From: Lactococcus termiticola
GTDB taxonomy: Bacteria > Bacillota > Bacilli > Lactobacillales > Streptococcaceae
Length of the DNA stretch: 64,000 bases
Reading direction: 5' to 3'
NCBI RefSeq assembly: GCF_003116835.1
Contig: NZ_BFFO01000007.1
Location: forward strand, 1 to 64,000
Under the pieces are notes generated by a model. The model saw only the letters and a list, made by a program, of their open reading frames with translations, made no database searches and had not been told where the DNA came from. The position numbers were made by a program, and so were the translations under genes. Below are positions 29,935 through 38,417 of this stretch, piece by piece. Position 1 is the first letter of the stretch. Each line of letters starts with the position of its first letter.

Positions 29935-30014
29935 GTGCGTAATTCCTTCTCCTCTTCCTCTCCCTCAAACTCCTCCCAAACCAAAAGCAGACCTACCTAT
30001 ACAGTGGACCTTCC

Positions 30015-30130
30015 GAAAAGCCCGGGTTTGCTGGTGAAAAAAGGCAAAACTTGAGACCGTTAGGGCTCAAGTTTTAGACATGGAAGCCTACGGCTTCGCT
30101 GTCGGCCTCACCAGCAAACCCGGGCTTTTC
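30015..30130 (-). repeat. Structured intergenic element, copy A
   Basis: A 116-bp element closed by a perfect 23-bp inverted repeat (30015-30037 with 30108-30130). Read on the minus strand it folds as follows: outer stem P1; a GGC/GCC extension beyond a TTTTT bulge; stem P2 (GACA/TGTC and GAAGCC/GGCTTC around a GC/CA internal loop); TA; then stem P3 (AAACTTGAG/CTCAAGTTT) with loop CCCTAACGGT. Copy B (38526-38640) has the same plan with different paired bases. It lies 48 nt past the small basic protein gene. Confidence 0.85.
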
Positions 30131-30178
30131 TGGAGCGGAACGGAAAGACAAGAAAAAAACCATTGCATCAGCAACAGC

Positions 30179-30289
30179 TTATTTTTCATCTTTTTTAACT
30201 TCTTCTGCTTTTGGTTTTGGACGGAGTCCCACTTTTTCAAAGTGCTTCTTGCCGTTACGTTTACCAAATTTACGAGATCTGTAAGCCAT
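30179..30289 (-). CDS. 36-residue basic protein, unknown
   Basis: A short ORF beginning MAYRSRKFGKRNGKKH and ending in an acidic/lysine tail (AEEVKKDEK). It is very rich in Arg/Lys, like small ribosome-associated proteins. It has the best expression signals of any small ORF in the window: GAAAGGAG six nt before the ATG and a TTGAAA-17-TAGAAT promoter with extended -10. I do not recognise the family. It stands alone between nadE and the structured element A. Confidence 0.75.
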   Translation of the reverse strand: MAYRSRKFGKRNGKKHFEKVGLRPKPKAEEVKKDEK

Positions 30290-30321
30290 GACCTGCTCCT
30301 TTCAAGGTTTTTCTGTATTCT

Positions 30322-30350
30322 ATTCTAGCATAAGACCGGGCTTTTTTCAA
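30322..30350 (-). promoter_or_regulatory. Promoter of the 36-residue basic protein gene
   Basis: TTGAAA (30345-30350), 17 bp, TAGAAT (30322-30327), with TGC just before the -10. It lies 32 nt upstream of the start codon. Confidence 0.8.
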
Positions 30351-37658: not shown

Positions 37659-38417
37659 TTATTTGTAGATTTCAAGCAAAGCAAGGAAGCTTTCAGCTTC
37701 AAGTGAAGCTCCACCAACGAGTGCGCCGTCGATGTTTTCTTTAGCCATCAATCCTTCGATTGTTTCAGGTTTAACTGATCCACCGTATTGGATACGTACA
37801 GCTTCTGAAACTTCTTTACCGTAGAGTTTTTCAACTGTTGAACGAACAACACCACAAGTTTCGTCAGCGATTTCATTTGTAGCAGTTTTACCTGTACCGA
37901 TAGCCCAGATTGGTTCGTAAGCGATAACGAGTTTAGAAACTTGTTCAGCTGTCAAGCCTTCAAGACCAGCTTCGATTTGAGCGGATACAAACTCAGCTGT
38001 TTTTCCAGCTTCGAAAGTTTCCAAAGTTTCACCACAGCAAAGGATTGGCGTCAAGCCGTTTGCGAAGATTGCTTTCGCTTTTTTGTTGATGTCTTCATCA
38101 GTTTCGTGGAAATATTCACGACGTTCTGAGTGACCGATGATGATGTATTCGATACCAAGGTCAGCGATTGCTGCTGGAGAGTTTTCACCAGTGAATGCAC
38201 CAGCATTTTCAAAGTAGCTGTTTTCTGCAGCAAGTTGAAGTTCTGAACCTTGACGTGAGTAAGCCATAGGTGCCAAGAAAAGTGCAGGTGCACCGATAAC
38301 TGAATCAACTTTTTCAGATGATGGCAAGTTATTTTTAACAGCATCTACAAAAGCTTGAGCTTCTGAGAGTGTTTTGTTCATTTTCCAGTTACCAGCAATG
38401 ATAGGTTTGCGTGACAT
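37659..38417 (-). CDS. tpiA: Triosephosphate isomerase
   Basis: A 252-residue TIM-barrel enzyme of glycolysis. GNWKMNKT holds the active-site lysine, [11 protein letters not shown] the catalytic histidine, and [14 protein letters not shown] the catalytic glutamate and loop 6. [10 protein letters not shown] and GALVGGASL bind phosphate. Codon use is markedly biased and more AT-rich at third positions than in its neighbours, as expected of a highly expressed gene. It is monocistronic with its own terminator and promoter. Confidence 0.97.

Follow-up and report, generated by a model that had tools for sequence, protein, structure and literature searches.

The question raised by this locus is whether a reading frame of only 36 codons, with expression signals as pronounced as those found here, is a gene in its own right and, if so, what its small basic product would do in the cell. 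An earlier note on the same DNA had proposed a highly expressed ribosome- or nucleoid-associated microprotein. Judged from sequence comparison, the frame is a real protein-coding gene, conserved in Lactococcus and some close relatives. Among the functions weighed below, the one we regard as most likely, while holding it tentatively, is that of a lineage-restricted accessory protein that binds the ribosome or rRNA.

Expression Signals

Positions are those of the window, by which we mean the whole 64,000-nucleotide stretch of Lactococcus termiticola DNA that was analyzed. The 36-codon ORF runs from 30289 to 30179 on the minus strand (coding sequence 30182..30289, stop codon TAA at 30179-30181), and its product is MAYRSRKFGKRNGKKHFEKVGLRPKPKAEEVKKDEK. 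Ahead of it on the same strand lie a sigma-70-type promoter, TTGAAA-17-TAGAAT with an extended -10 (TG), at 30322..30350, and the Shine-Dalgarno sequence GAAAGGAG at 30296..30303, 6 nt from the ATG. All of these were re-located where the earlier note had placed them and both signals have the form it described, so its positions are right, but the minus-strand orientation of gene, promoter and Shine-Dalgarno sequence had been left unstated.

The promoter (30350 to 30322) has 10 of 12 consensus matches in a scan of 701 bases, which returned two promoter-like sites against 0.4 expected. The pattern TTGAA[AT]-17-TANAAT stands no more than 130 nt upstream of the gene in 13 of the 14 family members described below, counting the window copy, compared with a mean of 0.017 members and a maximum of 1 in 300 trials with shuffled upstream regions, the pattern having been composed after inspection of the regions in which it was counted. 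It occurs once in the 64-kb window, both strands considered, and it accompanies the gene copies although their neighbors differ. AAGG is present inside the final 16 nt ahead of the start codon in all 14 members.

The upstream neighbor in the window is nadE, on the same strand and with its stop codon 8 nt ahead of the promoter, so that read-through from nadE into the microprotein gene may also occur; gatD converges on the gene from the opposite side. The stop codon of the microprotein overlaps the start of a predicted intrinsic terminator (30157..30180, minus strand), which reads from 30180 to 30157 as a 10-bp stem with 3 G-C pairs, a 4-nt loop and a T run. The terminator scan alone is no evidence, as it found one site in a region where chance would give 0.9, while the predicted fold of -10.1 kcal/mol (z of -4.25) beats 200 of 200 shuffles. 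By eye, a hairpin and T run follow the gene in 12 of 13 relatives, the remaining one (G027) having a hairpin without a T run.

Beyond this terminator lies element A, a long inverted repeat at 30015..30130 (no strand given) with a predicted fold of -79.3 kcal/mol and a z of -9.46. It begins 48 nt past the stop codon, the distance previously reported for it. Its proposed place in the 3' UTR of the microprotein gene is not supported, since the predicted terminator intervenes and the element is a multicopy dispersed repeat: BLAST of positions 30000-30140 against the window's own genome (E of 0.001) gave 28 rows, comprising the element itself, arm against arm, and 25 other places in 1.73 Mb with 74-95% identity, many of them partial. 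Element A is thus not special to the microprotein gene, and we rejected it as part of that gene.

Conservation and Distribution

The window's own genome holds a single match to the microprotein, which is the window copy itself. A profile search of 295 genomes of the family Streptococcaceae gave strong matches (E ≤ 4.4e-17) in 14, the window's own among them, so that the homologues on which the earlier proposal depended do exist, 13 in number. The carriers are 10 of 18 Lactococcus genomes and four from a second genus, which comprises Lactovum and allied MAGs. A single-sequence search already reaches homologues in both genera, with no match in another genome of the Lactovum-containing genus (G034, 81% complete). 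A pattern scan of named genomes located the gene at 10 loci, in Lactococcus cremoris, L. taiwanensis, L. nasutitermitis, L. hircilactis, Lactococcus sp. dk101, Lactovum miscens, three Streptococcaceae MAGs and one MAG titled only Bacillota.

Outside these two genera, the profile found no convincing homologue in overlapping sets of genomes from the family (295), the order (198), the class (398) and the phylum (398), and Streptococcus likewise gave no convincing match to the profile. Beyond the 14 true matches there are only weak rows with E from 7e-4 to 1. We inspected 20 of these, a set that leaves out L013-L015, L028-L031, L040, L043, L044, the rows without loci and the G009 row (E of 1.49), and judged all to be chance, as the matches cover 11 to about 30 positions; several cross stop codons and several apparently fall within a longer gene read in a different frame. 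Of the rows so judged, L023 and L024 are short frames with matches at only 16-18 positions. Plasmid and phage records contain no match to the family.

The eight Lactococcus genomes without the gene show nothing in the profile search at an E of 10 beyond two weak rows, one inspected and judged chance and the other the G009 row. One of the eight (G006) is only 71% complete, and the other seven fall into two clades on a tree of rpsD, which suggests two losses within Lactococcus; this tree (FastTree, midpoint root) is of a single gene and serves as a guide only.

Family members are 35-41 residues long with a pI of 10.1-10.9 in all 14 and a Lys/Arg share of 26-39%. Among the 13 distinct sequences, the window's included (alignment A2), the invariant residues in the numbering of the window copy are Y3, S5, K7, G9, K10, R11, N12, G13, H16 and G21, within a conserved head MAYKS.K.GKRN..SGG.KHF...GVK that is followed by a variable Lys/Glu tail. 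The family has two forms, told apart by a four-residue stretch (such as RKSG) that one has and the other lacks, and the SGG of the longer form is, by eye, missing from the window copy.

Over the alignable head of 24-29 codons, L. cremoris and G001 differ by 4 synonymous and 0 nonsynonymous changes, and G010 and G007 by 7 and 0. Across the pairs listed pN/pS ranges from 0.00 to 0.59; relative to the window copy it lies at 0.22-0.52, a comparison in which the synonymous sites are nearly saturated (pS of 0.64-0.83). By these counts the microprotein is under purifying selection. The existence of 13 other members in the family genomes searched, and the almost purely synonymous differences between close pairs, take the ORF beyond what would be expected of a chance reading frame.

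The same counts bear on the reading that the transcript is a regulatory or dual-function RNA whose ORF is secondary. The gene does have its own promoter and a predicted terminator, and the leaders of the nine other Lactococcus members are predicted to form hairpins, some of them weak (single-sequence folds of -4.2 to -29.3 kcal/mol). However, the selection seen in the close pairs acts on the amino acids, the leaders differ from one another in sequence and length, and that of the window copy is short, with 32 nt from the -10 to the ATG as opposed to 48-96 nt in the other nine and a predicted fold of only -1.4 kcal/mol. Rfam gives no match in the window at its gathering threshold. We consider this reading very improbable.

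Codon Usage

Measured against 18 ribosomal proteins of its own genome, the microprotein has a codon adaptation index (CAI) of 0.673, which lies within the range of 0.585-0.872 that these proteins themselves reach when left out one at a time. The reference was hand-picked by sequence, with some starts uncertain and rpsH and rpsN omitted. Among window ORFs with 150 codons or more the mean CAI is 0.324 and only 1 of 59 exceeds the microprotein, namely 37659-38417, which we take to be triosephosphate isomerase; 35-codon segments reach the value in 6 of 511 cases. With a less clean reference set that includes non-ribosomal ORFs, 1 of 59 window genes is likewise at or above the microprotein. With that set, 0 of 2000 synonymous recodings drawn from window usage attain the observed CAI, compared with 403 of 2000 drawn from the reference set's own usage. 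Codon adaptation, the conserved promoter and ribosome binding site, and the coding conservation together back, as sequence evidence, the earlier claim of strong expression, and the gene is apparently very highly expressed.

Such codon adaptation is also an argument against an exported cationic peptide of bacteriocin or signal type, which is the least probable of the readings that we weigh. The product is small and cationic and its occurrence in Lactococcus is patchy, as might suit a peptide of that kind. Yet the sequence has no hydrophobic signal, and the SGG of the longer form, absent from the window copy, follows no hydrophobic leader as judged by eye. An unsystematic look by eye recognized no bacteriocin export or immunity gene beside the copies; P-type ATPase and ABC-F genes do occur there.

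Genomic Neighborhood

The neighbors of the gene vary, with rpsD, sufB, dnaG, C69 dipeptidase, ABC-F and P-type ATPase genes beside one copy or another and nadE and gatD in the window. The commonest single neighbor is rpsD, found with 5 of the 13 other carriers. These five are among the nine other Lactococcus carriers, and in each rpsD lies downstream on the same strand at a distance of 0.3-1.8 kb: the gap is 301-417 nt in G001, G008, G010 and G012 and 1779 nt in L. cremoris (G015), where two ORFs intervene. In G007 the two genes are 20 kb apart, while in G004, G011, G013 and the window's genome rpsD is on another contig. Since rpsD is the most frequent neighbor, near in four Lactococcus genomes and L. 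cremoris, the site beside it may be the ancestral place of the gene in Lactococcus. As a side observation, the interval takes insertions, as seen in L. cremoris and G007 relative to the 0.3-0.4 kb of their relatives, and the two ORFs that fill it in L. cremoris (L056:2146-3587) look membrane-like by eye.

Elsewhere the location is not conserved. A C69 dipeptidase gene lies near three of the four copies in the other genus (one named by search, two by eye), and sufB is next to two Lactococcus copies (one named by search, the other by eye), so that the link to rpsD may be accidental and is not family-wide. In G068 (L022) the gene stands directly behind a cluster of tRNA-Gly, tRNA-Ile and tRNA-Ser genes on the same strand. 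This copy is the sole member without the TTGAAA-type promoter pattern, and because the tRNA cluster is immediately upstream its transcription probably starts at the tRNA promoter.

Possible Function

Searches of Pfam, NCBIfam, PHROGs and the PDB gave no significant match to the family. The only Pfam match, DUF3084 (PF11283) over residues 2-28, came from 1 of 13 members with an E of 0.019 and a score of 15.3 bits, below the cut-off of 25, and was set aside as chance; PHROGs gave one weak match, again from 1 of 13 members, with an E of 0.016. In the PDB the single-sequence search returned two matches, the better of which (eL37, E of 3.2) is chance, and the profile search returned nothing at an E of 10. 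When the family profile was compared with the 18 ribosomal proteins of the window's genome the best E was 0.34. Homology to known ribosomal proteins was rejected given these low scores. A likeness by eye to the N-terminus of bL27 and to a loop of uL2 (MA-K, RNG, GVK; RN...GGGHK) is superficial and was treated as chance; the profile gave an E of 5.5 against the genome's own uL2. One AlphaFold2 job returned a pLDDT of 57.6 and a pTM of 0.18, with one low-confidence helix at residues 8-20.

These comparisons also concern the possibility of a small protein that associates with the nucleoid or binds polyanions in general. A pI of about 10, a sequence rich in Lys and Arg, and high predicted expression would suit such a role. 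Against it, there is no significant match to any Pfam or NCBIfam family or PDB chain, and the invariant Gly, Asn, His and Tyr exceed what a generic basic tail would need; we therefore rate it as decidedly unlikely.

An accessory rRNA-binding protein fits best with the codon adaptation, the basic composition, the conserved head and the presence of rpsD beside about half of the other Lactococcus carriers. In the mechanism that we propose, a small gene strongly expressed from a promoter of its own would yield a basic protein of 35-41 residues whose conserved head would act as an extended or helical RNA-binding segment, making the protein an accessory, lineage-specific ribosomal or ribosome/rRNA-associated component. 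The mode could be that of bS22 or bL37, in which an unstructured basic peptide folds into an rRNA pocket, and the lack of a confident predicted fold alone is what an RNA-bound peptide might give. Such a protein would be dispensable, since part of Lactococcus is without the gene. The ribosome association put forward earlier thus keeps its plausibility from the pI, the placement near rpsD and the tRNA cluster in G068, and finds no backing in ribosomal protein homology or in the available L. lactis structure.

In this structure, the L. lactis 70S model 5MYJ (PDB), none of the chains matches the family. The underlying map, at 5.6 Å and from particles that were 100S dimers, was modeled from known ribosomal proteins (PMC5620043), so a 35-residue peptide could have been missed. 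It is accordingly conceivable, although we think it rather unlikely, that the microprotein is a true ribosomal protein specific to the Lactococcus lineage, a subunit component that occupies an rRNA pocket and was overlooked at this resolution. The account of the density in the same report mentions only two undescribed regions after all known ribosomal proteins had been placed. Its authors attribute both to long HPF (PMC5620043), and this speaks against a further protein in stoichiometric amounts, at least where 100S particles are concerned. The microprotein is in any case no core ribosomal part, because 8 of 18 Lactococcus genomes have no match beyond weak rows and no convincing one is found in Streptococcus.

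The density account is also in keeping with a cytosolic microprotein that binds and modulates some abundant target other than the ribosome, such as an acidic enzyme, an RNase, RNA polymerase or a regulatory RNA. For this reading, which we consider possible but doubtful, one may further cite a basic protein with no confident fold alone, a promoter of its own, a patchy presence, and neighbors too varied for any fixed pathway. It is less easily squared with rpsD as the commonest single neighbor, or with codon usage at the level of ribosomal proteins, which suggests stoichiometry with very abundant machinery.

Returning to the accessory ribosome- or rRNA-binding protein, a precedent is offered by bS22, described as present in mycobacteria, Bacteroidetes and Borrelia (PMC10618245). 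According to that paper, the Borrelia protein went unannotated until a structure and a translated genome search revealed its gene, its transcript was reported as highly abundant in fed nymphs, and the protein is 61% Lys/Arg and helical in its rRNA pocket; annotation can thus miss real ribosomal peptides, because this one did escape it. The microprotein resembles bS22 as described there in being very small and highly basic, and differs in its lower Lys/Arg share, in its Lys/Glu tail, in a lack of sequence similarity in the PDB searches and in that its ribosome binding is a proposal. The mycobacterial bL37, which the same paper presents as a helical ribosomal protein (PMC10618245), is likewise small and tied to a single lineage; here too the PDB searches show no similarity in sequence.

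Among the titles and abstract openings from literature searches on Lactococcus and on bL37 and bS22, none describes the gene; in L. lactis records the ORF may be annotated as a hypothetical protein. A novel 36-residue ORF of phage sk1, for which the source notes a likeness to a predicted membrane protein (PMC10986495), was taken as unrelated given that no phage record matches the family. Lactococcus serves as a model genus and is used in industry, and a conserved, strongly adapted gene without a model in Pfam, NCBIfam or PHROGs would mean that the description of its proteome, and perhaps of its ribosome, is incomplete.

A separate observation concerns the spc ribosomal protein operon of the window's genome, which is broken between rpsN and rpsH (contig C1, L099:3105-5165). 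The interruption spans about 2.7 kb on the same strand and encodes two proteins: by eye, one of 512 aa is Ala-rich and looks secreted, and one of 146 aa looks membrane-like.
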